From: Asterias amurensis
Lineage: Eukaryota > Echinodermata > Asteroidea > Forcipulatida > Asteriidae
Direction: 5' to 3'
Assembly: GCF_032118995.1 (NCBI RefSeq)
Contig: NC_092668.1
Coordinates: 14,921,501-14,985,500, forward strand
DNA: 64,000 nucleotides
Shown here: piece after piece, positions 2,798 to 53,140 of the stretch
How the letters are laid out: every line of letters begins with the position of its first letter
How positions within the stretch are numbered: position 1 is the first letter of the stretch
Position numbers and translations under genes: made by a program
Notes under the pieces: model-generated
The model's database searches: none
What the model was told of the DNA's origin: nothing
What the model saw: only the letters and a program-made list of their open reading frames with translations

Positions 2798-5700
2798 ATG
2801 GTTGACACCGAAGCCTATTTGAACGTAACCACCATTTTGGTTGGGTTGGTTACTCTGGCTGTCATTGCGCTGTACATGAGTACCCAGAGGCCTGCTGGTT
2901 CACCGCCCGGACCCACTGCCTTCCCAATCCTGGGAAATATTACCAGTAAGTATTATTATTAATCAGATACTAACTTATTCTGTACTTTTTATGAATGCTC
3001 TACCCCCTCAAGGCTCTTTATGGTATGGTGTGTACTAATATAAGTTGTTAACATTGTAAGTATTCAATTTATTGTGTTCATTTATTTGTACTATCAATTA
3101 AATATTTACCTCGTTAGGTGCCTTGAGCAATCCTTGTGGTGGATATATATGTGCATTATAAATTGTTGTATTATTTATTTTTTGGCACAAAAACTTTGCC
3201 AGAACATCAGCCAGAACATCATACAGTTACTATATTGCTTCAACTGGTACCATGCAGGTACCATAGAGGAATAACTGGTACCAAGGTCATTTTTGCTTTT
3301 GAACTCATTGATAAACCACTTTCCCCCAAAGGTGACCCAGTATGAAAATGTCTTCAATATTGATCATTTCTTGAACTTTAAAATGGAAATGTTGGTAACA
3401 CCTTTTCTTTATCTTTGTATAGCCTTCATGACCAATAAGCCTGTCTTTGACGTCTTTTCGGATCTGAGACAGAAATATGGCACCATATTTTCCTTGAAGT
3501 TTGCATTGAGGAATGTTGTTGTCTTGAACACCATTGAAGTTATCAGAGAAGCAATGGTCAAGCAGGCTGTAGAGTTTGCAGGACGACCCCGGATACCATC
3601 CAGTAAGTCCATCTTAGGTTTAGTCACTGTCTTATTAAATAGTTTTTAAAAACTTTGAAAACTTTGGACTTTTCTGTAACTTCTGATCTCAGCTGAGTTA
3701 CATGGGGTTTAAGGGCCTTATCAAACGAGCATGTTTTGTAGGCGACTTGGAGGCAACCAACTGCATTGCATGCTACAGGACCACTTGGGTAGCACATTAG
3801 TCATTCTTTGTATATCATCTTATGACCCACGAGAACAAGAGGTGTCATTCAAATGTGAATTCCCTTTCTTCGTGGAGATTGCCTGGAACTTGTTGCCCAT
3901 AAATTGCCCCATGTGACATGGCTCTTAGGCTTGCTCCTCACTTTTAAGGTTGGATTCTTGGGGGGCTTGGACTTGGACTAAGGTCAAACATGACTTGGAA
4001 GAATTTGGACTTGACCACTTGGACCTGAAAGACTGAGACTTCACCTTCTAAGGTAAGCACTTGAGACTTGACCTATGGCTAGAAAATGGAGACAAACAAA
4101 CCAAAAGAAACAAAAGGTACTGAATTGTTCAAACTATGCTAATGACATAAATTTTGTTGATTTGTCTTCTTTATAATTTAGTGGAAGTGTTCACAGAGGG
4201 GTATAAGGATATCGTTTTCACTGATTATGGTCCACAGTGGAAATTTCAACGAAAGCTAGCCCACTCTGCCGTTAGGTAAGCCATTCTACCATGTCTCTTT
4301 CAAACAAACATTGGGTGGTCGCTAGGCCTGGGTGACTACTGCGACAGGTGGTGTAGTCACGACTATATAAAGGAAGTTATTGACAGGTGGTGTAGTCACG
4401 ACTATATAAAGGAAGTTATTGACAGGTGGTGTAGTCACGACTATATAAAGGAAGTTATTGACAGGTGGTGTAGTCACGACTATATAAAGGAAGTTATTGA
4501 CAGGTGGTGTAGTCACGACTATATAAAGGAAGTTATTGACAGGTGGTGTAGTCACGACTATATAAAGGAAGTTATTGACAGGTGGTGTAGTCACGACTAT
4601 ATAAAGGAAGTTATTGACAGGTGGTGTAGTCACGACTATATAAAGGAAGTTATTGACAGGTGGTGTAGTCACGACTATATAAAGGAAGTTATTGACAGGT
4701 GGTGTAGTCACGACTATACAAAGGAAGTTATTGACAGGTGGTGTCACGACTATTTGAGTAGTAAACTTCACTAGTCCCACAGGCCTAGTGGTCACTAGCC
4801 CAGGCCTAGTGGCCACTAGCCCAGGCCTAGTGGCCACTAGCCCAGGCCTAGTGGCCACTAGCCCAGGCCTAGTGGCCACTAGCCCAGGCCTAGTGGCCAC
4901 TAGCCCAGGCCTAGTGGCCACTAGCCCAGGCCTAGTGGCCACTAGCCCAGTGTACAAACTTATAAAGGAAGTTATTGATAGAATTATCAGTTCATTGTTT
5001 ATGTTTCTATTTCAGACGTTTCACCCGCAAGGAAGAATTGGAAAAGCTGGTGTTTGCAGTGACTCCGAAAGTGGGTCAAATTCTGGATGAACAAGGAGAC
5101 GAGCCTTTTGCGCCAAAGTATACCATTGGGCAAGCAGTTTACAATATCCTTGCTACAATGTGTTTCGGAAAACAGTAAGTTCAAGCAAATTTGATTTTTT
5201 TTTTTCCAAAAAAGAATTTTCCTTTTTATGTTGAAAGAAATTATCAGTCAAAACAATACTCTATCGGGGAAAAAACTCTTTATTTTTTACAGATATAAAA
5301 CTGATGACCCTGACCTCATGGCATTCATCACTGCTAATACTGAAGCTACTGAAGCTTTTGGCAACGGTCTGCCTTCGGATTTTTTTCCGATCTTGAAGTA
5401 CGTCAAACTGCCGGTTGATAGACGAGTGAACAAGTTGGTCCAAGTATATTTCAAGCTGTTTTACAGCGAGTTTGAAAAGCACCGTGAAAATTTTGACCCA
5501 GGTATGCAAACAAGTAGTTGTTCTTGTTGGGTCAGAGTGTAATGTCAAGGGTCACATTGTAGTGTCAAGGGTCACAGTGTAATATAAATAGAATGTTTTA
5601 GGTATGGCCAATGGAGTCCTTTATTTAATATATGTTTGTATACTGTGAATATTATAGTTGTAGTACCATACACAGCCTGTGAAGTAACAGTTGAACAGAT

Positions 5701-8700
5701 TCACACACTTTCTCTACTTTGCTTGAAAATTTGACCGATAAGAAGATCCTTTTATAAAAAACAATTCCTGTTTCCTTGTTTTAGAAAATGTCAAGGACTT
5801 TTTTGACACTTTGATCTTGACCCAGAAGGAGGCATTAGCTGCCGGTGAGGAGGAGGCCAAGCTACTGACGGACACCCACATTGTTCAGACTGTCATTGAC
5901 TTGTTTGGAGGTAAGCAAAAAAACCTACTACCCCCCAAAAAATGAAATGGCATGAAGTATTCACTGTCTTTCCAATCATCGCGATCACCTTCAGATTGTG
6001 GCCCAATTTCATGGCTCTGCTGGCTGCAGAATTTTTTAGTCTTTGCGAGCATTCTCTGCTTTCAGAGTTAATGGGACATTTTTAAACTTGCTGTGTCAAC
6101 TTCAGTGCTTAATAACAGGAAGAATGGGCTCTCCACAAAGAAGAAGACTTGACACTCTACGCACAGGTTCAATTGACACTTGCAATTATTATTTTAATTT
6201 TGTTGTCAAACAGCCGGAACCGAGACCACCACCTTAAGTCTTCACTGGGCAGTCGCTGCACTGGCAGAGAATCCTAAAATCCAAGAGAGGATTGCCCAGG
6301 AGATTGATGATGTCATTGGTCGTGATAGACTGCCCTCTCTTGACGATAAAGGCAACTTGCCATATGTCGAGGCTACCTTACTAGAGATTCTCCGCTTTGG
6401 TTCAGTTGCTCCATTGGGTGTTCCACATTCTACACTGGTTGATACTACACTGAGTGAGTTTGAGTTAACCTTATTATGCTTATCCATTGGTCTCTCCTCG
6501 CCCCCCCCCCCCAATCGTTACAATTACCACCCTCCCCATCGCCCTAAACCCCCCCTCCCCATCGCCCTTAAGACCCCGGCCCTCCTCATCGCTAGTCTTG
6601 GTTCCAAGACCATTGGTGTTGTGCGGTCACACACAACCGATTATGCACGGCAAAAACTGTCCACGCTTGTAATGAATGAACGCTAGCGGGCGCTCTGTTT
6701 CTCTGATTTACGGATCTCACCATGTCCTGTGCTCACCATGGTGAGATCTAAATCAGAGAAACAGAGCGTCCGCTAGCGTTCGTTCATTACAAGCGTGGAC
6801 AGTTTTTGCCGTGCATAATCGGAACGTTGGTTGTGTGTGACCGCGCAACACCAATGGTCTTGGGACCAAGACTACCTCATCGCCCCAAACACCCCCCTCC
6901 CGTTAGCCCTAAACACCCCCTCCCATTGGCCCTAAACACTTCCCTCCCATTGGCCCTAAACACTTCCCTCCCATTGGCCCTAAACACTTCCCTCCCATTA
7001 GCCCTAAACACCCTCCTCCCCATCCCCCTAAACACCCCCCTCCCCATCCCCCTAAACACCCCCCTCCCCATCCCCCTAAACACCCCCTCCCCATCCCCCT
7101 AAACACCCCCTCCCCATCCCCCTAAACACCCCCTCCCCATCCCCCCAAACACCCCCCTCCCATTAGCCCTAAACACCCCCTCCCCATCCCCCTAAACACC
7201 CCCCTCCCCATCCCCCTAAACACCCCCTCCCCATCCCCCTAAACACCCCCTCCCCATCCCCCCAAACACCCCCCTCCCATTAGCCCTAAACACCCCCCTC
7301 CCCATCCCCCTAAACACCCCCCTCCCCATCCCCCTAAACACCCCCCTCCCCATCCCCCTAAACACCCCCTCCCCATCCCCCTAAACACCCCCTCCCCATC
7401 CCCCCAAACACCCCCCTCCCATTAGCCCTAAACACCCCCTCCCCATCCCCCTAAACACCCCCCTCCCCATCCCCCTAAACACCCCCTCCCCATCCCCCTA
7501 AACACCCCCTCCCCATCCCCCTAAACACCCCCTCCCATTAGCCCTAAACACCCCCCTCCCCATCCCCCTAAACACTTCCCTCCCATTAGCCCTAAACACC
7601 CCCCTCCCCATCGCCCTAAACACTTCCCTCCCATTAGCCCTAAACACCCCCTCCCATTCGCCCTAAACACCCCCTCCCCATCCCCCTAAACACCCCCCTC
7701 CCCATCGCCCTAAACACTTCCCTCCCATTCACCCTAAACACCCCCCTCCCCATCCCCCTAAACACCCCCTCCCCATTGCCCTAAACACCCCCTCCCCATC
7801 GCCCTAAACACTTCCCTCCCATTAGCCCTAAACACCCCCCTCCCATTCGCCCTAAACACCCCCCTCCCATTCGCCCTAAACACCCCCCTCCCCATCCCCC
7901 TAAACACCCCCCTCCCATTCGCCCTAAACACCCCCCTCCCATTCGCCCTAAACACCCCCCTCCCCATCCCCCTAAACACCCCCTCCCCATCGCCCTAAAC
8001 ACTTCCCTCCCATTAGCCCTAAACACCCCCCTCCCATTCGCCCTAAACACCCCCCCATCCCCCTAAACACCCCCTCCCCATCCCCCTAAACACCCCCTCC
8101 CCATCCCCTAAACACCCCCTCCCATTAGCCCTAAACACCCCCCTCCCCATCGCCCTAAACACTTCCCTCCCATTAGCCCTAAACACCCCCCTCCCATTCG
8201 CCCTAAACACCCCCCTCCCCATCCCCCTAAACACCCCCCTCCCCATCGCCCTAAACACTTCCGTCCCATTCGCCCTAAACACCCCCCTCCCCATCCCCCT
8301 AAACACCCCCCTCCCCATCGCCCTAAACACCCCCCTCCCCATCGCCCTAAACACCCCCTCCCCATCGCCCTAAACACTTCCCTCCCATTAGCCCTAAACA
8401 CCCCCCTCCCATTCGCCCTAAACACCCCCCTCCCATTCGCCCTAAACACCCCCCTCCCCATCCCCCTAAACACCCCCCTCCCCATCGCCCTAAACACCCC
8501 CCTCCCCATCGCCCTAAACACTTCCCTCCCATTAGCCCTAAACACCCCCCTCCCATTCGCCCTAAACACCCCCTCCCCATCCCCCTAAACACCCCCTCCC
8601 ATTAGCCCTAAACACCCCCCTCCCCATCGCCCTAAACACCCCCCTCCCCATCCCCCTAAACACCCCCCTCCCATTCGCCCTAAACACTTCCCTCCCATTC

Positions 8701-9771
8701 GCCCTAAACACCCCCCTCCCCATCCCCCTAAACACCCCCTCCCATTTGCCCTAAACACTTCCCTCCCATTCGCCCTAAACACCCCCTCCCCATCTCCCTA
8801 AACAAGGGTTCAAAAGGGTAGGTTTGGGATGGGCCCCACTTATAGTTCCACTTAGTTATGTATTGGCACCCTCTGTTGTTTGAAGTTGTCAATGTAAACA
8901 AGACAACTTTGAGGCAGCAACTAGTCTTTGGTGTTATACAAACAAGTGGAGTTAGTTTTAGTACGTTTTGTGAAGCTAAATTATTCTTGTCTTTTTCTTT
9001 ATTAGATGGTTACAAGATTAAGAAAGGAACGATGGTGATGATCAACCACATAGGTCTTCATTTTGACCCTGAGAAGTGGGACCAACCTGAGCAGTTTAAA
9101 CCAGGTCAGTTAGATTAGTCTAGAGACTATACAGTTTAAATTAATGAAAGATTCAGGAAAGTCAAAATGCTCTCCCGAGATATCTTGTGAAGGAATAGAG
9201 CTCCCTGCATTCTAGACTTATAGGTTGGACCAGCTTGGTATCCGTCAAGTTCAAAGAGCACGGCGCATGATTATTGGTTGGACCAAATAGCTTGGTGTCC
9301 GTCAAGTTCAAAGAGCATGGTGGATGCTTATTCATTACCTTTGGCTTTGTGTTTCATCCCTCAAATTAACATTGCTCTTTAGAAATTTCATAGCTAGTGT
9401 TAGCTGAGATTCTTTCCCCCATGTTGGAAATTACCATGAGCTGGAATCTCTAATAGGGTACATAAATATTCAGTCATTTTTTTCTTGGTTTTTTGACAGA
9501 GCGGTTTTTGAATGAAAATGGTCAACTTCCCGATAAACTACCTGAGAATTTCCTCCCATTCGGCCTTGGCCGACGAGTCTGTCTTGGTGAAGACTTTGCT
9601 AAGAAGGAGCTCTTTCTTATCTTCACATGGCTGTTTGGCCGGTACACCTTCTACAAGGTACCAGGGAAGGAGGAGGAGTCCCTGATGAAGCTGACTACTG
9701 TTTCAGGCTTTGTCCACCAACCTCTTGACGGTATGGAGGTGTGTGTTAAGAAGCGCTATGAGTTTGAATAA
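2798..9771 (+). CDS. Cytochrome P450, clan 2 (CYP17/CYP1/CYP2-like), 508 aa
   Basis: Exons: 2798-2945, 3423-3602, 4182-4275, 5016-5174, 5293-5501, 5785-5910, 6214-6453, 9006-9104, 9500-9771. They join in one frame with GT-AG borders (1527 nt). The product is a membrane-anchored, heme-thiolate monooxygenase expected on the ER and fed electrons by P450 reductase. Visible features are an N-terminal hydrophobic anchor (about residues 9-27), a PPGP hinge (about 36-40), helix-C W129-x3-R133, I-helix AGTET (306-310), ExxR (363-366), PERF (418-421) and the heme loop [10 protein letters not shown] (439-448, Cys446 as ligand). The C-terminal half reads most like CYP17 and CYP1 enzymes, so a steroid or related lipid substrate is plausible but unproven. 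Introns 3 and 7 carry large minisatellites. An AATAAA overlaps the stop codon. It is paired tail-to-tail with a paralogue at 11772-18023. Confidence 0.93.
4343..4762. repeat. 39-bp minisatellite in P450 intron 3
   Basis: Ten full, nearly perfect copies of a 39-bp unit plus a truncated one start at 4343 and recur every 39 bp (4382, 4421 and so on to 4733). Each unit contains ACTATATAAAGGAAG. A single related piece, TATAAAGGAAGTTATTGATA, follows at about 4961-4980 next to the exon-4 acceptor, so the array probably grew from ancestral intron sequence. Confidence 0.95.
4781..4949. repeat. 21-bp palindromic minisatellite in P450 intron 3
   Basis: Eight copies of a 21-bp unit start at 4781 and recur every 21 bp to 4928. 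Each unit after the first contains the perfect palindrome CTAGTGGCCACTAG. The array ends about 65 bp before the exon-4 acceptor at 5014-5015 and directly follows the 39-bp array. Confidence 0.95.
6593..6874. mobile_element. Foldback transposon, 282 bp, with 9-bp target duplication
   Basis: Two arms of about 130 bp form an almost perfect inverted repeat around a short spacer near 6722-6733. Both ends begin TAGTCTTGG when read inward. The flanks carry the same nine bases, CCTCATCGC, at 6584-6592 and 6875-6883, as expected for a target-site duplication. It encodes nothing. A duplication of 8-10 bp would fit a hAT- or Mutator-type transposase, which is inference. The target is related to the adjoining minisatellite. 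Confidence 0.85.
6884..8803. repeat. 24-bp C-rich minisatellite in P450 intron 7
   Basis: About 80 tandem copies of a 23-24-bp unit of the form CCCTAAACAC, then C-rich CCCCCTCCC, then ATTAG, ATTCG, ATCGC or ATCCC. The variants are interspersed and not blocked. A degenerate start of the same array lies at 6530-6592, before the foldback element. The minus strand, which is the non-template strand in the reverse sense, is strongly G-rich with closely spaced G-runs. The long repetitive open frames on that strand are by-products of the 24-bp period and are not genes. Confidence 0.95.
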
Positions 9772-11771: not shown

Positions 11772-18023
<6,252 letters not shown>

Positions 18024-21438: not shown

Positions 21439-23870
21439 TTAGTCGCATCCCACTCCCGCACCCAAAGAGCCAGTGCGCTGCATCCTGGCTAGTATGGTTT
21501 TCTCTGGCACTGTCTTCCGCTCTGTGACCTGGCCCAAGGTTGCCATCAGATCTATGAACATGGTAGTGAGGTTGATCTTCCAGCCGAACTCACTGGTCTT
21601 GTAGTCCCATGGGAAGGTATGATGGTAGTTGTGCCAACCCTCTCCTCCAGCGAAGGCAGACACCATGATGTTCTCTGAGGGGTTGATGAAGCGATCATAA
21701 GGCTTGTTCCCCCACATGTGGGCTGCGCTGTTTACCATCCAAGTACAGTTGAGAGTGAAGCAGTAGCGTAGCAGTCCAGCTACGTAAAAGGCATTCCAGA
21801 TGGATTCTCCCCAGCAGATCACCGGTACAGCAGTCGGTAAGATGAAACAGAAGAACAAAATCAACGGGAGATAGAACCTGCCACAAAACACCACAACAAC
21901 AAAGTCATTACGAATTGGAATACAGCTAGTACCTGCCACAAAACACCACAACAACATTACGAATTGGAATGCAACATTCATCGTTTCGCACTGACACACA
22001 TTCAAAAAGTAGCTCCTACTCACTTTCTTTGGTATTTCACCACAGGGTCATCCAAGAGGTCACGAAGGTCAATTCTGGACCCTTTCTCGATCACCTTAGG
22101 ATGTTTTCGGCAAAGGAGCCAGCCGACGTGAGCGAAGAAGAACCCTCTTGTGGCGTTGTGTGGATCGGCCTCGGTCTCCGAGTACTTGTGGTGAACTCGG
22201 TGGTCACGTGACCACTCGTAGATGTCATTCTGCAAACCAGCATGAATAAATAATATTCAAGGACACGTTTTTGTTGATGTTACTAAACTGTAGGTTCAAA
22301 CTAGTTTCTAAGATTCTTGACGAGAGAGAATAATCTGTTTGCAAGTTGCAGTAACCGATATTTTACATAGCCCAGCTTGCTTTGAAACAAAATGTGTTTC
22401 CGATGTAAATGTTCATAATTCTGTGAATGAACCGACTACTACCTATAGGGCATTTGATTGAGCGCAATTTGAGTTGCTTAACTGTGTTTTTTTATGGGAT
22501 CGTGCATGGAACACCATACAACGTTTGGTGGCTTGGTGAAGTTGTCTTTCAAATAATGTTATTCAATTTTCTAAGGTGAAACTTAAAAGTGTCACTCATT
22601 AAATGTCATGTATGAGACCAACATTTGGGTTTTTCTTGTAAACCTTGGTGTGGGATTTGTTTATGTCTTATTCACCTGGAGTGCTATGGAGTTAAACATT
22701 CCAAGGAGTATCCGTAGAGGGAGCTTTGCTTTGTATGTGCGATGAGCCCACAGCCGATGTGCTCCTGCCGTTATGCCAATGCCGGAGCACAGATAAAGCC
22801 AAATAGCTGAAAACAATTTGTATAAATTATATTAATTAACTTTAACCATTAATATATATGCACAAGTTATTGTGAAAGTAATATTATAAATGCCAGACGT
22901 TGTTTTGTATCAACATTACTGGAGTGAATTATTGAATAATGATTCCATAATGTCATGGCAACTGTGCCCTTGAGCAAGATACCTAACTGTAACTTGTCAT
23001 GACATTTTCTGTAATGCAGATTTAAAAAGGCCCAGTGCACTTTACTGCTATAAAAGGAGGGGTTTGCTCCTCTGTTAAAACTTATTATTACAAGTAATCT
23101 GCTTACTTGTAACTGTATCTTTCACTCATTGTATATTTTATTGTTCTCTTTATGCCCTTAGAGGTTTTTGCATTAGGCGCTTTACAAATGTCTTTACTGT
23201 TTAATTATCTTAATGCTGGGTTTATGTTATTCAAGGGAAGGTATACCTTTGGCTTTTTTAAGCGGTCGATTGTTTTAATGCTACATACAATGTTAATAAA
23301 ACCTGTGAAATATTAATTTCAAAAGGTTGCGTTTTTGAGATATTGCCGAAATCTTGATCCAATATATTAAATGTCAACGCATGAAGAATAATTCTCCATG
23401 GAAATAAACAATCTGAGAAACGTATCTAACAGTAACACTTCTCAGATACAATATTGGGGGCATTACAAAAGTGATATCTTTTTACATAAGCACATTACTC
23501 AAAATGCGTTTGTATTAAAAAGCTGCTGTAGTTTTTGAACTAAAAGTTAATTAATTTTAAGAGTGATTAGCAAACGTAGACTTTCCCTTTTATTAAGTGT
23601 TCATCATTATCAGTATACATTACCCCATAGGAGAGTGTATGCCATACACTTCCACGTCAGTGCAAAGAAGGCATACACGGCTGCAATGTGTAGCATGGCC
23701 ATGATAAAGACGTTACGCCACACTATTATTGTCCGGACTTCTTCCTCGGCGGGCTGTTTGTCTACAAGCAGCTCGGCCGTCTGAACGGAGTCTGTCTCGG
23801 TTACGTCTTCCGTAGTCCCGTCGTCTGGGGTTAATCCCATCCCGGAGTAGATGTGGTTTCGTGGCGCCAT
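21439..23870 (-). CDS. SCD: Stearoyl-CoA (acyl-CoA delta-9) desaturase, copy 1, 340 aa
   Basis: Exons in transcript order: 23624-23870, 22676-22806, 22024-22229, 21439-21877 (1023 nt, all GT-AG). The enzyme is an ER membrane di-iron desaturase that inserts a cis double bond at carbon 9 of stearoyl- or palmitoyl-CoA, using cytochrome b5 and oxygen. All three histidine boxes are present: HRLWAH (99-104), HRVHH (136-140) and HNYHH (277-281), plus the NSAAH motif with His248. Hydrophobic segments fit the four-helix fold. The start ATG sits in AAAATGG context, and the N-terminus MAPRNHIYS is shared with the second copy. Intron 3 (21878-22023) contains a duplicated acceptor. A 5' UTR exon ending at 24671 with donor GTGAGT is possible. 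It is divergent from copy 2. Confidence 0.95.
23234..23593. mobile_element. MITE-like repeat in desaturase intron 1
   Basis: The left end (CAAGGGAAGGTATACC) and right end (GTAGACTTTCCCTTTTA) are imperfect inverted repeats around a body of about 360 bp that includes ACCTGTGAAATATTAATTTC. It lies wholly within intron 1 of desaturase copy 1 and ends about 30 bp from the exon-1 donor. Confidence 0.5.
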
Positions 23871-25810: not shown

Positions 25811-26301
25811 TTTGCATCTATCTTTAGCTTCTTTAGGGAGCCACTTTGTGATATGTGGCCCCCGGGGCTGGATGTATCGTTTAAAGATATTTCCATGCAC
25901 TATTAGTTTTACTTGTTAATTAACCTTTTCAGAAACTTGGGAAGGTGGTATTTTGGATACGTAGTTGTAGTGATGGTGTGCAAGTATTGCAGAAATCGAG
26001 CGTGAGGTAAACGTTTTGGAACAATTATTCACTTTATGCAAATCTTATTGGTAACGATTTGCATAAAGTGAATAATTATTTTAAAACGTTTATTTCACGT
26101 CCGATGTCATACTTGCCCACCATGACTTCATCGACGTATCCAAAACATCCCTTCGCCTAATTTCTGCCATCGTTAAACAATTTTTGACAAAAATAATGCT
26201 TTAGGTCAATCCAGGATGGACATATCTTGAGGATATATCCAGCCTCCGGGGGCCACAAATCTCAAAGTGGCTCCCTAAAGAAGCTAAAGACAGATGGAAA
26301 G
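25811..26301. mobile_element. Large foldback element, about 490 bp
   Basis: The outer arms, TCTTTAGCTTCTTTAGGGAG on the left and CTCCCTAAAGAAGCTAAAGA on the right, are exact complements. The inner portion is also palindromic: TTTATGCAAAT and ATTTGCATAAAG surround the centre near 26040-26060. The whole element could form one long hairpin. It has no coding capacity. Confidence 0.85.
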
Positions 26302-29609: not shown

Positions 29610-30298
29610 AATATAAGTAAATAGACCAGTACACACACTGCAAAACACTGTATGATAATTTACACCATATAGGCCGAGGTGTTGTCACGTTAAAAACTAC
29701 CTAAAACAGAGAATCAACATTAATGGGGTGTTAAAATAACACAAAATGTAGTTGTTTTTAAAGAGATAAGTATTATTTGTAACTGTTTTTAAGAAATTAG
29801 TGTTATTAATTGTTTTAACCGATCCCCTATAAAAACCACTTTTTCAAAATTATTCATCCTAGCCAAATCGATTGAAAACATCCTCAGGTGCAAAAAAAGA
29901 AAAGAAAAAAAAAGAAAGAAAAAACAAAGCCTGGAAGTTGGTGGCAAGGTCGTAAATGTTTTCCTTATTTTAACACCCTATGGTATGGATGGTGTAAATT
30001 TTGTAGATTGCCTTGGTATCAATATGTGCCAACACCCGACACATGGTGTAAAGAAAAATACATCAGTCTTTGCAATGTATGCTTATCTGCCTGTTGACTT
30101 GGCATTGAAGTAAACTTGTGAATTGTTGTGAAATTAAAGTACAGTTTTATACTGACAAGCTCAAACTTAATTTTGAGAAGAGTCAAGAGCCTGGCCTCTG
30201 TACCTTTAACTTTGTACCATAACTGTTACTAAAATGTACATTATATTACAATAGTCCATGCATTTCTTGTCCGACCATTTATTAATTAGATTTGAATG

Positions 30299-32050: not shown

Positions 32051-32434
32051 TTTAAAAGATAACGTTGCCTTGGATCGGTCGAGTTGGCCTTTGAAAGGCG
32101 TTTGTAACCGTTTGCTATAAAATGCAAATGGGTAGAAAGATGTTGTAAAAGTAGAATACAATGATCCACAAAATCATGCCTAGAAATTGCATGGTTTTCC
32201 TTTTACCTCGTCGACCACCAATGTCGGCCATTTATGGGAGTCAAATGTTTGACTCCCATAAATGGCCGACCGTATTAGTTCGCAAAGTAAAATGAAAACC
32301 ACGCAATTTCAAGGCAAACTTGTGTGGACCATTGTATTCTACTTTTACAACATCTTGATCCAACCATTGCGTTTTATAACAAACGGTTACAAACGCTTTT
32401 TATAGACCGATCCGAAGGCAACGTAGTCCTTTAA
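32051..32434. mobile_element. Foldback MITE, family F (AACGTTGCCTTGGATCGG), copy 1
   Basis: The element is an almost complete palindrome. The left arm starts with AACGTTGCCTTGGATCGG, the centre is GGCCATTTATGGGAGTCAAA facing its complement near 32225-32265, and the right arm ends CGATCCGAAGGCAACG. Copy 2 is at 40629-41018. It lies about 1.1 kb upstream of the start codon of desaturase copy 2. Confidence 0.88.
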
Positions 32435-33514: not shown

Positions 33515-35472
33515 ATGGCCCCACGAAACCACATCTACTCTTCGGTGGAGTTGACCCCGGATGAAGGCAACGCAGAGCAGGTACAAGAGGAGCATGGTGA
33601 GACCGACATGCCGGGGACAGAGTCGGCGGAGATGGCCGACAGTCAGCTAGGAGATGGGGTGAAAGTCCCGACGAGAATTGTGTGGCGTAACGTTGTTATT
33701 ATGGCGGCGTTGCACATTGCATCCGTCTATGCTTTCTTGTTTCTGACGTGGAAGTGTCGAGCGAACACGCTCCTTTGGGGTAAGTGTCTTTGCTCTAAAA
33801 TTTGCATTTTTTCTCCAACTGACGTCAAAAATAAACTGAAAGGTGATCCACCTTTTAGGACGCTCATTCAGGAAACATGCACAAGTTTGTGTGGGACAAT
33901 TATTGATTGCAGAGATTTAACGAAATGAAACTATGAACAAAACATGACTTTTACGGACTCTAGCTCTGATGCTGCCGATCAGCAGTGTGTGTTCGAATCT
34001 CTTGGTCATGACACGTGCGTTCCTAAGGAGAATACTAAACCATTATTGACATGTTATTTTATTGTTTGTGTCTTTTCAGCTATCGGGCTTTATCTTTGCG
34101 GCGGTATTGGCATAACAGCAGGGGCACATCGGCTGTGGGCTCATCGCACATACAAAGCAAAGCTCCCTCTACGGATACTCCTTGGAATGTTTAACTGCGT
34201 AGCACTCCAGGTGAATAGACACCACAAAATCCCACATTCAATGTTTTTTTTTGTATAACAGAAACTACAAATTCAGGGCCAGTGGAATCACAAATGCATT
34301 ACTCAACAAAACCACACAAACCGTCGACATCACTTGATTGCGCCTTGCACACAGCAACGTCGACATTCTTTTTTATAACGTCACAAAACCCCACCGTTAA
34401 ACTTGATGTGGCTTGTAAGTGGTTAAAGCTCCTGCAGTTAAAGTTAATAGTTCGTAGCATGATCACATACCAGCACTAAACTACAAATCACTTGTCAGTC
34501 TTTCTATTTATCTAATGACATGAGACATCACAACATCATGTCTACCAAGCTGAACAAAATATTGTAACCGACAAAGCTCTCATGATGAACATGATTGATA
34601 AATCCAACAAGTGTGACTAAGGCAGCTTTTTGTTTTTGCAGAATGACATCTACGATTGGTCACGAGACCACCGAGTTCACCACAAGTACTCGGAGACCGA
34701 GGCCGATCCACACAACGCCACAAGAGGGTTCTTCTTCGCTCACGTCGGCTGGCTCCTTTGCCGAAAACATCCTAAGGTGATCGAGAAAGGGTCTAGAATT
34801 GACCTTCGTGACCTCTTGGATGACCCAGTGGTGAAATACCAAAGAAAGTAAGTAGGAGTTACTTTTTGAATGTGTGTCAGTGCGAAACGATGAATGTTGC
34901 ATTCCAATTCGTAATGTTGTTGTGGTGTTTTGTGGCAGGTACTAGCTGTACTCCAATTAGTAATGTTGTGGTGTTTTGTGGCAGGTACTAGCTGTATTCC
35001 AATTCGTAATGTTGTTGTGGTGTTTTGTGGCAGGTTCTATCTCCCGTTGATTTTGTTCTTCTGTTTCATCTTACCGACTGCTGTACCGGTGATCTGCTGG
35101 GGAGAATCCATCTGGAACGCCTTTTACGTTGCTGGGCTGCTACGCTACTGCTTCACTCTCAACTGTACATGGTTGGTGAACAGCGCAGCCCACTTGTGGG
35201 GGAACAAGCCGTACGATCGCTTCATCAACCCTTCGGAGAACAGATTCGTGTCCTCTTTGGCAGTTGGTGAAGGCTGGCACAACTACCATCATACCTTCCC
35301 ATGGGATTACAAGACAGGGGAATTCGGCTGGAAGATCAACATAACAACCATGTTCATAGATCTGATGGCAACCCTGGGCCAGGCCACAGAGCGGAAGGTA
35401 GTGCCCAAAAAGGTCATACAAGCCAGGATGCAGCGCACTGGCATTTTGGGTGCAGGAGTGGGATGCGACTAA
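33515..35472 (+). CDS. SCD: Stearoyl-CoA (acyl-CoA delta-9) desaturase, copy 2, 346 aa
   Basis: Exons 33515-33779, 34080-34210, 34642-34847 and 35034-35472 (1041 nt, GT-AG) match copy 1 in lengths and phases except for 18 nt in exon 1. The ER-membrane di-iron enzyme should make delta-9 monounsaturated acyl-CoA. Histidine boxes are HRLWAH (105-110), HRVHH (142-146), HNYHH (283-287), with His254 in NSAAH. The cytosolic N-terminus before the first hydrophobic helix (about 58-80) is acidic and diverged from copy 1, while exon 3 differs at one residue only (Asp versus Glu). Intron 3 (34848-35033) carries three tandem acceptors, of which only the last gives an open frame. A good acceptor (TCTCTGATAG) 24 bases upstream of the ATG suggests an unmapped 5' UTR exon. 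A possible AATAAA is at 36800-36805. Confidence 0.95.
34929..35033 (+). promoter_or_regulatory. Tandem triplicated 3' splice acceptor in desaturase intron 3
   Basis: The stretch GTTTTGTGGCAGGT, with its intervening sequence, recurs so that acceptor AGs fall at 34937-34938, 34983-34984 and 35032-35033. The first two are followed by GTACTAG, which in the exon frame gives Lys-Tyr-stop. The third is followed by GTTCTAT and gives the conserved Lys-Phe-Tyr. Copy 1 has the same arrangement with two acceptors (21878-21880 and 21933-21935, minus strand). Confidence 0.85.
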
Positions 35473-39153: not shown

Positions 39154-42100
39154 ATGGCCAGTAGCGGAGTGACAGAACAGCTTAAAAAGCTAGGACTTCC
39201 GGATATTGATCCCAAACAGCAGTCAGTAGAGCTACCAGTAAGTTGAAATGATTGAGTTTATGTTTTATATCTAAACTGGAATTGCAAAACCCCAAACTTT
39301 AGATCATACTTCCACAGTATCTCGTTTTTTAAAATATTACAACTTTTTTTCTTCTGAAAGGGAACTACAGAGTACGTGCGCGTTTCCCCACTAGTCAAAG
39401 ATGGGAAGCTCATATCAAGATTCTACGACGGAGTTGAATCGCTACACGACTGTTTCATGCGTGGCTTGAAACTCTCTGGTAAGTTCATTAATTTGACTCT
39501 GGTCTTAAAGTCCAGGACGCCATTTGGCTTGAAGTGACCACTTGACCATGGTCAGTCCTTTATTCTTAGACTCGGTCCAGTAATCCCTAATCAAATTATT
39601 AACTCCTACTGCCAGTTTCTTAATCCAAATACAGATTTCTTGTGGAAGATTTACTTGTTATTGTTTTCCTTTGTGATATGATTGGCATAACGTGCATCTG
39701 TTTGTTTTGTAACTTGGTTAGATTTCAAAAGGCCCCCTTTTAAGATCCCAATGCTAAGAGAAAAGAGAATTAGCTGTTGCAAACTGCTTAACCAAAATGG
39801 ACGTTGAAATGTTTTGCTATCAGTTAACGCAAAGCCATAAGTGGGCCAAGTTTAAGACAGTATTTTCTCTCTAAATGTTACCCTTCATTATCTTGCCATT
39901 TTACTCCTGTTCCTGTTTATACAGCAAATGCACCATGTCTTGGATGGAGGGCGATGGATAATCATCCATACTGCTGGATAACCTATGAGCAGGTATTATT
40001 TATTTATTTTGAATACTTGTTTGTTTGGGTTTAAGGACACCTATTGGTAATTTTCAAAGACCAGTCTTCTCACTTGGTGTATCTCAACATATGCACAAAA
40101 TTTGGCATTATCCCAATATGGGACTTTGCCGAGCATAAAGTAGAAGATAACACACCTGTGCAAATTTGAACTCCATTTGTCGCGAAGTGGCGAGATGATA
40201 ATGGAAGAAAAAACACCCTTGCCACTCGAAGTTGTGTGCTTTCAGGTGCTTGATTTCAAGACCTCAAAATAATTCTGAGGTCTTAAAATCAGGTTCAAAT
40301 ATTTCAGTGGAAAATTACTTCTTTCTCAAAAACTACGTCACTTCAGAGGGAGCCGTTTCTCACAATGTTTTACACTAGCAATAGCTCTTCATTGATCTCT
40401 AACAAGTAAGTTTTGATGCTAACAACTATTTTGAGCAATTACCAATAGTATCCAGTGCCTTTAAACCACAACACATTGTAGGTTGCATTGCAATGCAATA
40501 TTAAAATGACATGTTTACAAAATTAAATAATTGTACAAATGATTTTATGCAAAATCGGGACCAGCCAGATGTTGTTGATAAAAGGTTTCAACACAATACA
40601 TGTATACATAAAATATACATTAAATTGGTTAAAGGAACACGTTGCCTTGGATCGGACGAGTTGGTCAAAACAAAAGCGTTTGTAACCGTTTTTTATAAAA
40701 TGCATATGGTTGGAAAGATGTTTTAAAAGTAGAATACAATGATCCACACAAGTTTGCCTCGAAATTGCGTGGTTTTTCTTCTACTGTGCGAACTAACATG
40801 GTCGGCCATTTATGGGAGTCAAAATTTTGACCCCCATAAATGGCCGACGTGTTAGTCGACGAGGTAAAAGGAAAACCACGCAATTTCGAGGCATGTTTGT
40901 GTGGATCATTGTATTCTACTTTTACAACATCTTCCTACCCATATGCATTTTATAAAAAACGGTTACAAACGCTTTTCAAAGACCAACTCGACCGATCCAA
41001 GGCAACGTGTTCCTTTAAAGAACTAGACAATCATTTCAAAATGCAATCATGTTGTCATTAAATCTTTGACAGCTGGGATTTAAAAGAATTTCTGTAGCTG
41101 TCAGTTATTCACAGAGGTGGAACCAACCCCGTCATGTTGCTTTCTCTCAAATGCTGTTGTGTATAGTCAGATTTAAGGGGTGGGGGGGGGGGGGCTATTA
41201 TGTCTACATTTGGTGGACTGCTACAGTTTTTTACCCCATAGTCGGGTTTATATGCACAAACTTTGAAGTATATTACGGCCTATGTATGACAATTCATCCA
41301 TATAGACCAATTCATTAATCTTAAGCTTTTATTTTTAATCCCGAAAAAAAGTCATGACTTCTTTTTCTCTTAGGTATACGCTCGGGCGATGAATTTTGGT
41401 TCTGGTTTGATCCAAAAGGGGTTATCTGCTGGCAATGACACGTACATCGGTATCTACTGTATGAATAGAGTTGAGGCAAGTACAAGGCATCTAGTATATA
41501 TCTTTTGGACGAGGTGTGTTTCAAGTTGAATCCAAATCACTTTTGTCTGGATCTTTTTGATAAGTCCATTGCACTCGGCCAAGACACAACACGCATAAAA
41601 AGCATCCGAACTTTCTTGGGTAGGATTCGAACCCATGACCTTTTGTACTTAAGAGCAGTCGCTGCATGAACCACAAGATCATCTCAACACGAAAGGCAAG
41701 CCTGATGGATTGTTCTTGTAAGGGCAAGGCTATTTTTTTCTAAGTAAAGATCACCGAATAGAAGTAAATGTAAATCAAGAGGGGCACTTAAGCAATGACC
41801 AGGGCCCTATTTCATAAAGCCTGTAAGCACAAAAGTAAATGTAAATCAAGAGGGGCACTTAGGCAATGACCAGGGCCCTATTTCATAAAGCCTGTAAGCA
41901 CAAAAGTTTGCTAAGCACATAAAGTATTGCTTAGCAGTAACATGTTACCAGCCAAAATCACGTTAAGTTTACATTGATGTGATTGGTGCCCTACTAATGT
42001 TTGCTTACCAAAGACATTTGTCAAGCAATGTTTTCTGCTTAACACCTTTATGGAATGTGGGCATGGAGGCAACTACCTCTATTACCTTAAGGAGTTATCA

Positions 42101-48100: not shown

Positions 48101-51100
48101 ATTTGAGTTATCATCGTTTGAGTTATCGTCATTTGAGTTATCATCGTTTTAGTTGTCACTGTTTGAGTTATCATCGTTTGAGTTATCGTTGTTTGAGTTA
48201 TCATCGTTTTAGTTGTCACTGTTACAGTTATCATCGTTTGATTCTAAACTGTTGAAGGTGGCTTGTGCTTAAAGTCTTGCCTCTCATCAATGTGGCCCTG
48301 GTTCAATTTCCTGCTAGGGCTATATGTGATTGAAGTTGTGCATTGGGTTTCTCTTATGCCACAAGGGTTTACCTCACTGCCCTACAATGGTCTTCCTCCC
48401 CTCAGGAAAAATCAAACCTTCGATATCTGGCCGTGCTTTGTGCTCTTATATCTGTCAATGTAGCATGCTGCCAAAGGTTCCCTTGCATGCCTGCAGCTTG
48501 TGGCATCCTTTGCATTCAGCACCTCAGCTGCTAGTATTAAAGGATGATCAGCCTCTTAAATCACATAACTCTCAAATGGCTTGTTATATCCATAAACAAT
48601 TTTAGGAATTGATGTCTGCTTGCGACTGTCTTCATGAATGAATCTTAAGACTGAGTAACAATTATAATTTGATTTGTATATTAAAACTAGGTGATGACTG
48701 GTGGGCGAGTTCGGTTTATCACTACTGGTGCTGCTCCTGTTTCCCATGAGGTCAAGATGTTCTTTAGATGTGCTCTTGGTGCGTCGGTAAGTAGTCACGG
48801 TTATCCTTCTGAGTTTTCTTGTTAATGCTTTGAGACTCTTGTTAAGCACTACAAGAGTTGTTAAAATCTAAGGACAAGTAACTCGTCCTAATCTCAAGAT
48901 GAGACTAATCTTAACTCTTTTTGACTCTTGGTTGGGATGAGTTACTCGTCCTAACTCGAAATACTCGAGATAAGACCAGTCTAAACACTTTGTTAGGATG
49001 AGTAACTCATCCTTTGTCGAGATAAGACTAATCTTAACTCTTTGTGATTCTTTGTTAGGATGAGTAACTTGTCCTACCTCGAAATACTCGAGGGAAAGAC
49101 CAGTCTAAACACTTTGTTAAGATGAGTAACTCGTCCTTTGTCGAGATAAGACTAATCTTAACTCTTTGTGACTCTTTGTTAGGATGAGTAACTCGTCCTA
49201 CCTCAAAATACTCGAGATAAGACCAGTCTAAACACTTTGTTAGGATGAGTAACTCGTCCTTTGTCGAGATAAGACTAATCTTAACTCTTTGTGACTCTTT
49301 GTTAGGATGAGTAACTTGTCCTTACTAGAGATACTCAATAAGACCAGTCTAAACTCTTTGTTACAATAAGTATCTCCTCCTAAGACTAGTCTTATATTTT
49401 TGTGAAATCCATCCCAGATTGTTTGTCCAGCCTTGACTTAAAACCTTCACTTGAACAAAGGGAAACTAGAATATAATGAATCAAAATATTCTTAAAAAAG
49501 AGCTCGCTGTTAATGTTGTTTGCAGTTAATTGAAGGTTACGGACAGACTGAGTCTGGTAGCGTATCAACCATAACACTTCTAAACGATGTGAGTGCTAAC
49601 CATGTCGGATGTCCGCTGGTATCCATGTACTATAAGCTACAAGATGTTCCTGAGATGGACTATTACGCTAAAGATTGCCAAGGAGAGGTAAGTCAGGGTG
49701 CCATACTTAAGATTCACTGTCCAGGGCTCGTATTGAAGACCACTGGGTTTGGAGCTCATAATGTTTGTTTACTGGACCAAAGGAGTGATAAGTCAGGGTG
49801 CCATACTTTAGATTCATTGTCCAGGGCTCGTATTGAAGACCACTGGGTTTTGAGCTCGTAATGTTTGTTTACTGACCAAAATATTCTTCACAAGAACACC
49901 CTCAAAAGGAGATTGCGTAACAATCAAAATGACAACATATATTTCTAGCTTGTCATACTTGTTGTTATCCTGGCAGATTTGCCTGAAAGGATTCGGGGTG
50001 TTCAAGGGATACTTCAAGGAACCAGCGAAGACAGCTGAAACAATCGATGAAGATGGTTGGTTACATACAGGAGATATCGGAAAATGGCTGCCTGTAAGTA
50101 TAGAATTAGCTTGAACATCTGACGTCACAATATGAGGCTCATGAATTAACCCAGAGACTCACCTTGAGCCTATGTCAATCCCTGTCCATAAGCACATTTA
50201 ACCTCGCATTCATTCCAAATGGAGATTCATAGTTAAATCCTACATACATGTACAAATGCTGCATGCATCTGCCAAACAGTACCTCGGACCAATCAAAACA
50301 CAGCTATGGAAAGCTTCTGTCACTACCTGTTTATCCAATGTAATGGTTGTATCCAATGAAATCATCAGTTCTGTAAAACAAATACGTGTATAGTCCTTGC
50401 TGATGGATAAAGACGTCCAGCGAAGACTCTAGTAGTTGACTCTAGAGTGTCCTCAAGGAGGGCGCTGTTTGCCCCGGTGATGTCATATGCAAATCAAATA
50501 AGTTTGGTTCTACACCTCATTAAATTTGTACAAGTAAATTCAAATTTTACATGCAAATATAGAGAAAATCCAGTTACAAGTAAAAGTTATTCACCAACAA
50601 TCACTTTGCATACTAGTTTTTGATTTTTATTTGATTGAAATATTGAAGTTTTGAGTCATGAAATGAACAGCATTTTAAAAGAGTAAAAATTCTTGTTGTT
50701 TTTATTAGAATGGACAATTATCAATCATTGACCGGAAGAAACACATCTTCAAAATGGCGCAGGGTGAATACATCGCTCCAGAGAAGATTGAGAATGTCTA
50801 CATCCGCAGTGAGTTTGTCTCACAGTGTTTTGTACATGGAGATGGCCTTAAGGTATATGCACAAATTGATAACAGCTATTTGTAGTTTTCTAATTCAATA
50901 TTTAAACTTTAAAAGTGAACATAGTAAGAAAACCTAAGTACTGAGTGCACGGTACTAACACACATCGGTGTGTATGGGTGAAACAAAAATTGAATGTTCT
51001 TTATGATTGCCTTCCTTCTGCAATAATCAATCTTTGTCATTTACAGGTTTATGTTTGGAAACATTTGCATACATTAAGGAACCTCACAGCCAAGTGATCT

Positions 51101-53140
51101 AGTACAATGTACTTCTGTGGCTCACAGAGCTTGAGTTTTGAATAATTTGTATGTGTTTTCTTTAGGCGAGTCTGATTGCGATTGTTGTTTGTGTTTTTTT
51201 TATCAATCTGATTGCAGTTGTTGTTTGTATTTGTATTAGGCGAGTCTGATTGCGATTGTTGTTTGTGTTTTTATTATCAATCTGATTGTGGTTGTTGTTT
51301 GTATTTGTATTAGGCGAGTCTGGATGCGATTGTTGTTTGTGATTTTATTATCAATGATTGCGGTTGTTGTTTGTATATGTATTAGGCAAGTCTGATTGCG
51401 TTTGTTGTTTGTGTTTTTATTATCAATCTGATTGCGGTTGTTGTTTGTATTTGTATTAGGCGAGTCTGATTGCGATTGTTGTGCCAGATGAGGAAGTGAT
51501 TCCAAAACTCGCTAAGAGTAAAGGTGTCGCAGGAGGCATCAAAGAAATCTGCTTAAACAAGGTAAATATCAAAACAATAATGCAATATTTAAAACTTTGC
51601 ATGTTAAGAAAACAATCAGCTGGCGAAAGTTCAAAGACAGAGAGACAAATTAGGACACGACCAACATAAGGGCTAGATAGCTCAGTTATAAGAGTGCAAG
51701 CATGATAATATGGAGGTTGCAGGTTTAAATCCTGCTGGCGTCACTTTGTCTTTGTTCATCTCAAATCTACCCTGTCGGTTTTCCTTCTTGATTCTCAATA
51801 AAAAGTGCAATCCCTAAAGGTGATTGATCCCTTACCAGGTTGTAATCTTAAACTTGGTTGTGATCTCTGGTTTGTTGTTATAAAGTAGTTATTGGTCGAA
51901 TGGCTTCTGACTGGCACCCCTGAACAAAGATAGTAATAAAGTAGGGACACTTCCATCATTAGGGCTAGATTGCTCAGTTGGTAAAGAACCGCCATGTTAA
52001 TTCAGAGGTCAGAAGTTCAAGTTCCACTCTTGTAAATGTTTCTCATTCTTCCCCAAATAAATAACAATAGAGTTAAATACTGGTGGGTATTAAGTCAAGT
52101 GTGTTTGGTAAAGTCAGTGGTTTAAGTTTGCTTTTTATTGACAAGGTACTTTTCATGACTTATTTCCCTCCAGGATGTGAAGAAAGCGGTTCTAGATGAC
52201 ATGGTCAAGATTGGCAAGGTAGCCAAACTGCATAGCTTTGAACAGGTAGGTGAATACTTTTTATCAGTTGGGCAGAGTAAATTTTCTTGAAGCCCTCTGT
52301 GAAGCTACACTACCACAATTTAGAAAGACCATTCCATAGTGTTTTTTGTTTTTTTGATGGCGGTGGAAAAGGTTGGCTTAGTGGTTTCTTTCTCTGCCTT
52401 TCACCTCTATGGGCTCTGGTTCGAATCCCACCTTAAACCAGAACCTTTTATGTGGATTGGGTTTCCATTCCATACTTGGTTACATGGGTATTTCCTTCAC
52501 TGGTTGGACTTTGGAGGTACTGAGTATACAGTGCTTAAAGAAACATTACAGAATTGGTAAACAAAAACAAATTTTGAAGATTTACATACTTACAAATTGC
52601 ACAGTCTAATGATGATGATAGTAGAAAACATCCCTTGCAATATTTCTGTCTGAAGTGTCATACTTTATAAGAAATAAATTATCTAATTTCGCGTTTGGAG
52701 CCTATCGCTCAGTGAGCGTTTTATTAATTTGTTGTTTTGCATCGATGTCCTACAAATGTGTATTCGGTTTTTCACTATTTTCTCGTGACCCAGATGGCCG
52801 CTCGATCTCAAACTTCAAAAGATTTGTCAGTTTAAGTATATTATGGTGGATTAAATAAGTGCTTACACTCCCAGCAACTGTTTTGTCGACACAACCAATT
52901 CTGTAATGTTCCTTTACCACACATGGGTGTGCAGTCACACTAAAATCACATTTAATTTTATCATGATTAAAATTGTATTGACTACTTTTCTTAAAAATTC
53001 AGGTGAAGGATATATATCTTGAGAGTGAGCTTTTCAGTGTGGAGAACAACTTACTGACCCCTACCATGAAATCAAAGCGTCCATGCTTAAAGAAGCATTA
53101 TGCTGAGCAGATTGAAAGCTTGTATAATAATCTGGAGTAA
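39154..53140 (+). CDS. ACSL: Long-chain acyl-CoA synthetase (ACSL1/5/6 type), 663 aa
   Basis: Nineteen coding exons: 39154-39237, 39361-39478, 39925-39992, 41374-41475, 42172-42271, 43139-43311, 43952-43984, 44193-44318, 44947-45030, 45527-45661, 47366-47451, 47772-47823, 48691-48786, 49526-49687, 49977-50093, 50709-50852, 51460-51561, 52174-52245, 53003-53140 (1992 nt). It activates C12-C20 fatty acids to acyl-CoA through an acyl-AMP intermediate at ER or mitochondrial membranes. Motifs: ATP loop [11 protein letters not shown] (238-248), EGYGQTE (422-428), and the FACS signature running from DGWLHTGD (499-506) to [12 protein letters not shown]. The usual N-terminal transmembrane helix is absent from this start, so an alternative first exon may exist. 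The intron after 41475 is GC-AG. The exon at 51460 is preceded by four decoy copies of its own start. A possible AATAAA is at 54605. Confidence 0.95.
40030..40464. mobile_element. MITE, family A copy, in synthetase intron 3
   Basis: The ends TTTAAGGACACCTATTGGTAA and TTACCAATAGTATCCAGTGC with CTTTAAA are inverted repeats. The inner TTCACAATGTTTTACACTAG region resembles other family-A copies. It carries an insertion relative to the 1453 copy. Confidence 0.75.
40629..41018. mobile_element. Foldback MITE, family F, copy 2
   Basis: Like 32051-32434, this is a near-complete palindrome of about 390 bp. It starts AAAGGAACACGTTGCCTTGG, has a central CCATTTATGGGAGTC hairpin near 40805-40850, and ends CCAAGGCAACGTGTTCCTTT. 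It lies in synthetase intron 3, just after a family-A MITE. Confidence 0.9.
41545..41700 (-). mobile_element. tRNA-derived SINE fragment
   Basis: The minus strand reads an A-box-like GATCTTGTGGTTCATGCAG and a B box GGGTTCGAATCC, spaced as in a tRNA (about 41590-41690). It lies in the GC-AG intron of the synthetase. Arms do not pair well enough for a functional tRNA. Confidence 0.6.
41764..41905. repeat. 71-bp tandem duplication
   Basis: The segment including GTAAATCAAGAGGGGCACTT and CAGGGCCCTATTTCATAAAG occurs twice in direct succession with one substitution. It is intronic in the synthetase gene. Confidence 0.85.
42401..42885. repeat. 95-bp tandem array of a SINE-derived segment
   Basis: Five copies recur every 95 bp, with CCAGCCATGG at 42401, 42496, 42591, 42686 and 42781, and a sixth partial copy at 42876. 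On the minus strand each copy contains GGTTCGATTCCCC, a Pol III B box, within sequence like the SINE at 14590-14886. Copies differ by very few bases, so amplification is recent. It is intronic in the synthetase. Confidence 0.93.
45195..45500 (+). mobile_element. tRNA-derived SINE with conserved central domain
   Basis: The B box GGGTTCGAATCCC at about 45230-45245 is followed by a body containing GACACTTAACCATTGCTTCT, TACTCCCCAGGGAGCTGAGA and GCTCTATATAAGAAGCTA, and a TATTAT/TAATAA tail near 45480. The structure is that of a full-length SINE in the intron before synthetase exon 10. Confidence 0.8.
45956..46160. repeat. 101-bp tandem duplication
   Basis: CACTTCTCTTGGCGATGAAG through CCTTAGGGTGGCACGTGTGG is present twice in direct orientation, virtually identical. 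It is intronic in the synthetase. Confidence 0.85.
47978..48245. repeat. Short-period GAGTTATC repeats
   Basis: Irregular repeats of GAGTTATC, with (G/A)TCGTTT and TTAGTTGTCACTGT variants, run in two blocks split by AAGGTGGCTTGT and TCAATGTGGCCCTGGTTCAA, which itself recurs at about 48250-48325. They are intronic in the synthetase. Confidence 0.75.
48866..49395. repeat. About 123-bp tandem repeat
   Basis: Four or more copies of a unit with GATGAGTAACTCGTCCT and AGACCAGTCTAAACACTTTG lie at about 123-bp spacing (around 48937, 49059, 49183 and 49306). Within each unit the half-repeats also resemble one another. They are intronic, just before the exon encoding EGYGQTE. Confidence 0.85.
49680..49880. 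repeat. Tandem duplication of an exon-end/intron junction
   Basis: Sequence from the donor GTAAGTCAGGGTGCCATAC onward for about 104 bp is repeated immediately (second copy from about 49790). The second copy begins GATAAGTCAGG and has lost the GT donor, so only the first can be spliced. Confidence 0.75.
51151..51480 (+). promoter_or_regulatory. Five-fold tandem repeat of a 3' splice site and exon start
   Basis: Acceptor AGs lie at 51164-51165, 51238-51239, 51312-51313, 51384-51385 and 51458-51459 (spacing 74, 74, 72, 74). Each is followed by a version of GCGAGTCTGATTGCGATTGT, the start of synthetase exon 17. Reading from copies 1 to 4 reaches an in-frame stop before or soon after the next copy. 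Only copy 5 runs into GTGCCAGATGAGG and the conserved protein. Confidence 0.85.
51669..51745 (+). mobile_element. tRNA-derived SINE head
   Basis: GGGCTAGATAGCTCAGTTAT at the start gives an A box, and GCAGGTTTAAATCCTGC gives a B box and T-arm, about 75 bp in all. A similar head follows at 51960-52040 in the same intron. Mismatches in the stems argue against a functional tRNA. Confidence 0.6.
51960..52040 (+). mobile_element. tRNA-derived SINE head
   Basis: GGGCTAGATTGCTCAGTTGG with a degraded B box (AGAAGTTCAAGTTCC) resembles the copy 290 bp upstream. Both are in the intron after synthetase exon 17. Confidence 0.55.
52370..52535 (+). mobile_element. tRNA-derived SINE fragment
   Basis: TTGGCTTAGTGGTTTCTTTC forms an A-box-like region and CTGGTTCGAATCCCACC a good B box, followed by a non-tRNA body. 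It is directly followed by the family-C MITE at about 52540. Confidence 0.6.
52540..52918. mobile_element. MITE, family C, better-preserved copy
   Basis: The termini AAAGAAACATTACAGAATTG and CAATTCTGTAATGTTCCTTT are inverted repeats of about 22 bp. The body matches 16840-17185. It lies in the last intron of the synthetase. Confidence 0.85.

Follow-up and report, generated by a model that had tools for sequence, protein, structure and literature searches.

The stretch of DNA analysed here, 64,000 nt of the sea star Asterias amurensis (NC_092668.1, positions 14,921,501 to 14,985,500; hereafter the window), contains a gene that we assign by homology to the long-chain acyl-CoA synthetases (ACSL). 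One intron of this gene ends in a tandem array of its own acceptor together with the first codons of the following exon, as a preliminary description of the window had proposed. The exon upstream of the array (50709..50852, forward strand), placed by tblastn, reading frame and homologues in the PDB, ends in CTTAAG|GTATAT in phase 0, and the productive exon downstream (51460..51561, forward strand) is 102 nt long, is in phase 0 at both borders and has the donor AAG|GTAAAT; the intron between them (50853..51459, forward strand) would measure 607 nt with the distal AG as its acceptor. When the distal copy is joined to the preceding exon, the product matches Pfam AMP-binding_C (E = 3.5e-05), and the junction aligns without gaps to all four PDB sequences found, three of them named carboxylic acid reductase or thioester reductase and one oxidoreductase. 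The seven 3′ exons of the gene are flanked by normal splice sites and, once joined, give an open frame of 276 codons that matches AMP-binding (E = 5.8e-19) and AMP-binding_C (E = 4.3e-05). Further exons were placed from 42 to 53 kb by tblastn with pieces of the acyl-CoA synthetase locus L001, exon borders being set by homology and reading frame and not by cDNA; the tblastn and frame search found no ACSL exons before 42172 or between 45661 and 48691. The contig that carries L001 is filed under a Verrucomicrobiaceae metagenome-assembled genome, and its synthetase is split across several frames in an intron-like manner; it is likely to be eukaryotic contamination.

The anatomy of the array agrees with what had first been described. 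Five AGs end at 51165, 51239, 51313, 51385 and 51459, with spacings of 74, 74, 72 and 74 bp that match the proposed unit of 72-74 bp, and after each comes a variant of the opening ~23 nt of the exon, GCGAGTCTGATTGCGATTGTTGT, which matches perfectly at 51166, 51240 and 51460 and with two mismatches at 51314 and 51386. With up to three mismatches this 23-mer is found nowhere else in the window, and 100 shuffles of the window gave 0 matches. Tandem Repeats Finder (TRF) reports the same array as a 74-bp period at 51162-51482, with 4.4 copies and 91% matches. The unit can be refined further, as it is itself a dimer in which an A half, 39 bp long, is joined to a B half of 33-35 bp, with identities of 0.87-0.97 among A halves, 0.89-0.97 among B halves and 0.65-0.79 between the two kinds. 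The A half holds the exon start and then a T-rich tail ending in TATC; the B half begins with AAT and ends with ATTAG, and only in the B half is the AG terminal. On the forward strand, unit 1 (51166..51239, 74 bp) has a CTGAT motif at 51208-51212 and its AG at 51238-51239, unit 2 (51240..51313, 74 bp) has them at 51282-51286 and 51312-51313, unit 3 (51314..51385, 72 bp) lacks a CT and with it the CTGAT and has its AG at 51384-51385, and unit 4 (51386..51459, 74 bp), which starts with GCAAGT, has CTGAT at 51428-51432 and the productive AG at 51458-51459. At its right edge the array runs into the real exon, and at its left edge, in copy 1, into a different sequence that is probably the original intron end (51144..51165, forward strand; AATTTGTATGTGTTTTCTTTAG), upstream of which lies a candidate branch point, CTCAC (51121..51125, forward strand; A at -42), identified by consensus match only. 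Because the duplicated codons lie in a conserved region of the enzyme that aligns without gaps to the solved homologues, the repeat appears to be of exon ancestry. Tandem arrays are generally hard to assemble, and two other genes of the window are present as paralog pairs, so that a misassembled array or a decaying gene copy has to be considered; we regard this as very improbable, since the units differ from one another by substitutions and a 2-bp deletion and the seven 3′ exons retain their open frame and normal splice sites.

The strength of the acceptors was estimated with a position weight matrix built from 31 other acceptors of the window, whose leave-one-out scores range from 0.1 to 15.0 (median 6.9) and which should be taken as rough. 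In order from copy 1 to the distal AG, the five sites score 10.9, 10.3, 10.3, 7.6 and 10.3, within the range of real acceptors, and all five look usable by this measure. Copy 1 had been credited with the best polypyrimidine tract, and it does have the highest pyrimidine fraction at -20..-3 (0.78, followed by 0.67, 0.67, 0.61 and 0.67 in copies 2 to 5), because its left edge continues into the probable original intron end. The consensus of branch points is CTRAY, which CTGAT fits, and a CTGAT with its A at -29 precedes three of the five acceptors (51239, 51313 and 51459). The B half received this motif with its copy of two exon codons, CTG ATT, and the 2-bp deletion of unit 3 abolishes it for the AG at 51385. 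Four of the 34 annotated acceptors of the window, including the distal AG, are preceded by a CTRAY at a distance of 15-50 nt. The stretch free of AG is 67 nt before both 51459 and 51313, 65 nt before 51385, 28 nt before 51165 and 20 nt before 51239. In human exons, the first AG after the branch point is reported to be used and AGs within about 12-15 nt of it to be bypassed (PMC1431707). Applied to these AG-free stretches, the scanning rule suggests that selection of a copy depends largely on which branch point is taken. We also considered RNA structure as a means of masking the upstream sites and rejected it, since the fold of the region 51120-51565 has z = 0.85 and was equalled or bettered by 80 of 100 shuffles.

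Only the distal copy is productive, as previously stated. Copy 5 is open through the exon and encodes conserved protein where the PDB homologues align without gaps, and read in phase 0 the other copies meet the stops that had been listed, TGA after CGAGTC in copies 1 and 4, TGA after CAAGTC in copy 2 and TAG in copy 3. In all four decoys the premature stop satisfies the 50-nt rule of nonsense-mediated decay (NMD). However, the same is true of 122 out of 124 AGs when all those up to 400 nt upstream are counted for six ACSL acceptors (with the decoys included and no strength filter applied), and since such stops are the default they say little about regulation; we have therefore dropped the fact that every decoy gives a stop as evidence of function. 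The intact AGs were likewise dropped as a sign of selection, because the units differ at few positions and by our estimate few hits to an AG are expected. Depending on the acceptor, the exon would be 102 nt long from the distal AG and 176, 248, 322 and 396 nt long from the successive AGs back to copy 1.

Three further junctions of the window carry boundary duplications: one more in the ACSL gene, on the donor side, and the acceptors of two desaturase paralogs. In the ACSL gene (49680..49880, forward strand) the real donor is 49687|GTAAGT; 100 bp downstream lies a copy in which the sequence is ATAAGT, with no GT. In desaturase gene A (34901..35039, forward strand) the AGs end at 34938, 34984 and 35033, the last being productive and the decoys reading AAG TAC TAG. 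Its inverted paralog B (21872..21973, reverse strand) has two copies, with a decoy AG ending at 21933 that also reads AAG TAC TAG and a productive one at 21878. We use the name desaturase because of a PDB match of gene A to acyl-CoA desaturase 1 (E = 9.6e-50), as the Pfam FA_desaturase match lies below the curated cut-off (24.9 versus 29.7 bits). The two paralogs are 97.6% identical over a stretch of 331 bp and 89.3% over another of 532 bp, which suggests that the number of copies, three versus two, probably changed after the gene duplication.

Judging by its anatomy, the ACSL array is of a known kind. The name ‘mirages’ has been given to minisatellite-like duplications of intron-exon boundaries in amphioxus, which are reported to leave splicing undisturbed (PMC3087553). 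In the globin gene BflGb6, for instance, the repeated segment joins the 3′ end of an intron to the 5′ part of exon 2 and is present as six or three units on two haplotypes (PMC3087553). A second report adds PGBD5 and cites TnC and Adh (PMC3902484), so that the examples we can gather from the two sources are Adh3, TnC, the globins BflGb6 and BflGb9, and PGBD5 (PMC3087553, PMC3902484). The ACSL array shares with them the form of a boundary minisatellite in which many units keep their AG or GT: its units span the intron-exon boundary and carry AG splice signals (scores of 7.6-10.9). Donor and acceptor sides both occur in amphioxus. A further feature of mirages is an unstable number of units; the desaturase paralogs of the window have three and two copies. 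The ACSL array differs from the amphioxus cases in residing in an ACSL gene, in its dimeric structure of ~37-bp half-units and in its branch-point-like motif derived from the exon. Among the literature matches listed, nothing came closer to it than the amphioxus papers. The hosts of the cases described are cephalochordates, and the evidence on splicing comes from the amphioxus cases only, the ACSL array being known from its sequence. Intron 7 of human factor VII contains a 37-bp tandem repeat that starts at the splice junction, repeats the 5′ splice site and varies in the human population. Like the ACSL array it repeats a splice signal from the junction, but on the donor side and in a human gene.

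Taken together, we think it likely that the ACSL array is a mirage-type minisatellite across an intron-exon border and that most splicing of its transcript goes to the distal AG at 51459. The desaturase arrays and the ACSL donor copy speak for this view, as instances of the same process at other places of the window. We infer the following course of events. A stretch of ~37 bp, made of the intron end and the first ~20 nt of the exon, would have been duplicated first; one of the two halves would then have lost its AG, and the resulting 74-bp dimer would have been amplified. In this process the upstream edge would have kept the branch region, the pyrimidine tract and the AG of the original intron, as copy 1, and the downstream edge the original exon, as copy 5. 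Splicing to 51459 could draw on its own CTGAT at -29 with no AG in between, and on a real exon of 102 nt with a donor behind it, whereas the upstream copies would define exons of 176-396 nt consisting largely of T-rich intron, and exon definition may thus be the reason why the distal AG is used. Any leak to the upstream AGs would end in a premature stop and presumably be cleared by NMD as waste.

Several observations weigh against this interpretation. The distal AG scores no higher than copies 1-3 (10.3 versus 10.9, 10.3 and 10.3), its CTGAT at -29 is also present in copies 2 and 3, and its AG-free zone is matched by copies 3 and 4. Since these signals are shared with upstream copies, nothing local marks the distal AG, and a preference for it would depend on exon context and on precedent. 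In the desaturase arrays, the AGs with positive scores have no yTnAy motif 15-50 nt upstream; these arrays also precede the exon that holds the normal stop of the gene, and the argument from exon length therefore fails for them. It could also be that the duplications are recent and mildly harmful. The array constitutes a natural test of acceptor choice, since a single intron offers five near-identical sites and protein results from the last one only. If the distal site is indeed cleanly used, exon context must override a nearly equal site strength.

Regulation of ACSL by the choice of acceptor is possible, a reading whose basis is the anatomy only. The preliminary description had gone further, proposing that the array tunes synthetase output by sending transcripts to NMD, a suggestion that the analysis does not support. 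A dial of this kind, in which regulated choice between decoy and distal acceptors sets the level of ACSL mRNA, would be in keeping with five sites that all score within the range of real acceptors and with four out of four decoy stops placed for NMD. We nevertheless consider it unlikely, given that premature stops are what 122 of 124 AGs would give in any case, that other scoring AGs sit upstream of the array (51046, with a score of 10.9, and 51127, with 6.9), and that three sister junctions carry duplications, among which the desaturase arrays, with their unequal copy numbers, point to a mutational process. Moreover, the amphioxus mirages are reported to leave splicing undisturbed (PMC3087553).

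A possible preference of arrays for junctions was examined in a set of 66 junctions (34 acceptors and 32 donors) from the ACSL gene, the two desaturases and two cytochrome P450 genes. The set is smaller than the full number of junctions of the five genes, as it leaves aside ACSL exons that were not found and one P450 donor that could not be placed, a pattern search for it having given no hit. The TRF input comprised 21 merged intervals from 40 rows, after exclusion of periods below 12 and of the rows at 29892, 57255 and 63344, which have longer periods and lie outside gene spans. In total, 17.1% of the annotated gene spans lies within arrays. Three of the 66 junctions fell in TRF arrays, versus 10.7 for shifted positions; adding the array of paralog B by hand gave four, versus 11.0, and leaving out the array at 6878-8804 gave four versus 6.5. 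A test for local copies over 40 nt found three junctions at 75% identity or more and four at 70% or more, versus 11.6 for shifted positions, a control inflated by low-complexity sequence and by the 6878-8804 array. An enrichment of arrays at junctions is therefore rejected (4/66 versus 11.0), and we see no preference for them. Shifts gave counts as low as those observed in 2% of cases with all arrays and in 22% without the largest one. The figures agree with tandem duplications that arise often and are lost to some degree at junctions, the depletion itself not being firm. That four of 66 junctions are duplicated (three events if the desaturase pair shares an origin) suggests that this genome makes such duplications often.

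The sequence that follows the acceptors raises another possibility. Immediately after each AG of the array stands GCGAGT, or GCAAGT at the start of unit 4, and both hexamers fit the consensus of GC donors, so that each copy could in principle act both as a 3′ splice site and as a GC-type 5′ splice site (AG|GCGAGT). A transcript spliced to an upstream copy would then regenerate AAG|GCGAGT and could shed one or several units of 72-74 nt, each potentially a minimal GC-AG intron, before reaching the distal exon. AAG|GCGAGT scores 8.9 without position +2, at least as high as 81% of 32 true donors, and the form found in unit 4 scores 10.1 (97% of the 32). Only 18 of the 4798 GC dinucleotides on the two strands of the window reach the score of TAG|GCGAGT, five of them being the copies in the array, and the putative introns would contain CTGAT in the B half in three of four units and end in AG in all four. 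On the other hand, GC donors are far less used than GT donors, 74 nt is near the lower limit of intron length in animals, and the match was spotted post hoc and derives from a single ancestral hexamer. The desaturase arrays have no comparable donor (AAA|GTACTA scores -2.8 and CAG|GTACTA 0.8), and recursion as a device common to the ACSL and desaturase arrays is rejected because the desaturase decoys are poor donors.

A precedent for the gain of an intron in this manner exists in potato, where a border duplication in an RdRp gene gave rise to a spliced intron whose donor comes from the former exon (PMC4974935). As in the ACSL array, the duplication took in the 3′ end of an intron together with the beginning of the following exon, and branch site, pyrimidine tract and AG were copied with them (PMC4974935). 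The potato intron, however, is new, has a GTAAG donor and is confirmed by RNA-seq (PMC4974935), whereas the ACSL array has a candidate GC donor read from the DNA. On balance, stepwise removal seems an improbable fate for the ACSL units. Were it to occur, a spliceosome that had settled on a decoy could correct its choice, which would explain how duplications of intron borders can grow without harm; the units would represent incipient introns, and the array would have caught introns being born by tandem duplication.

Other features of the window may be mentioned briefly. In the ACSL intron that follows the productive exon, the sequences at 51661-51740 and 51961-52040 resemble, by impression, the heads of tRNA-derived short interspersed elements; they were not reported by ARAGORN, nor by Rfam at gathering scores. 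The two P450 genes are inverted relative to each other (2800-9760, forward strand, and 11775-17990, reverse strand) and share 42-64% identity where their exons were matched; in the first gene, one exon was checked against Pfam p450. The array at 6878-8804, a 24-bp C-rich repeat of about 82 copies, lies in a P450 intron. The segments at 25811-26300, 32094-32400, 40629-41018 and 6593-6874 match their own reverse complements and are possible fold-back repeats. Finally, an (ATA)n tract of about 540 bp (12787-13328) adjoins an open frame of 203 codons (13328-13936) that resembles, by impression, the end of a retroelement protein.

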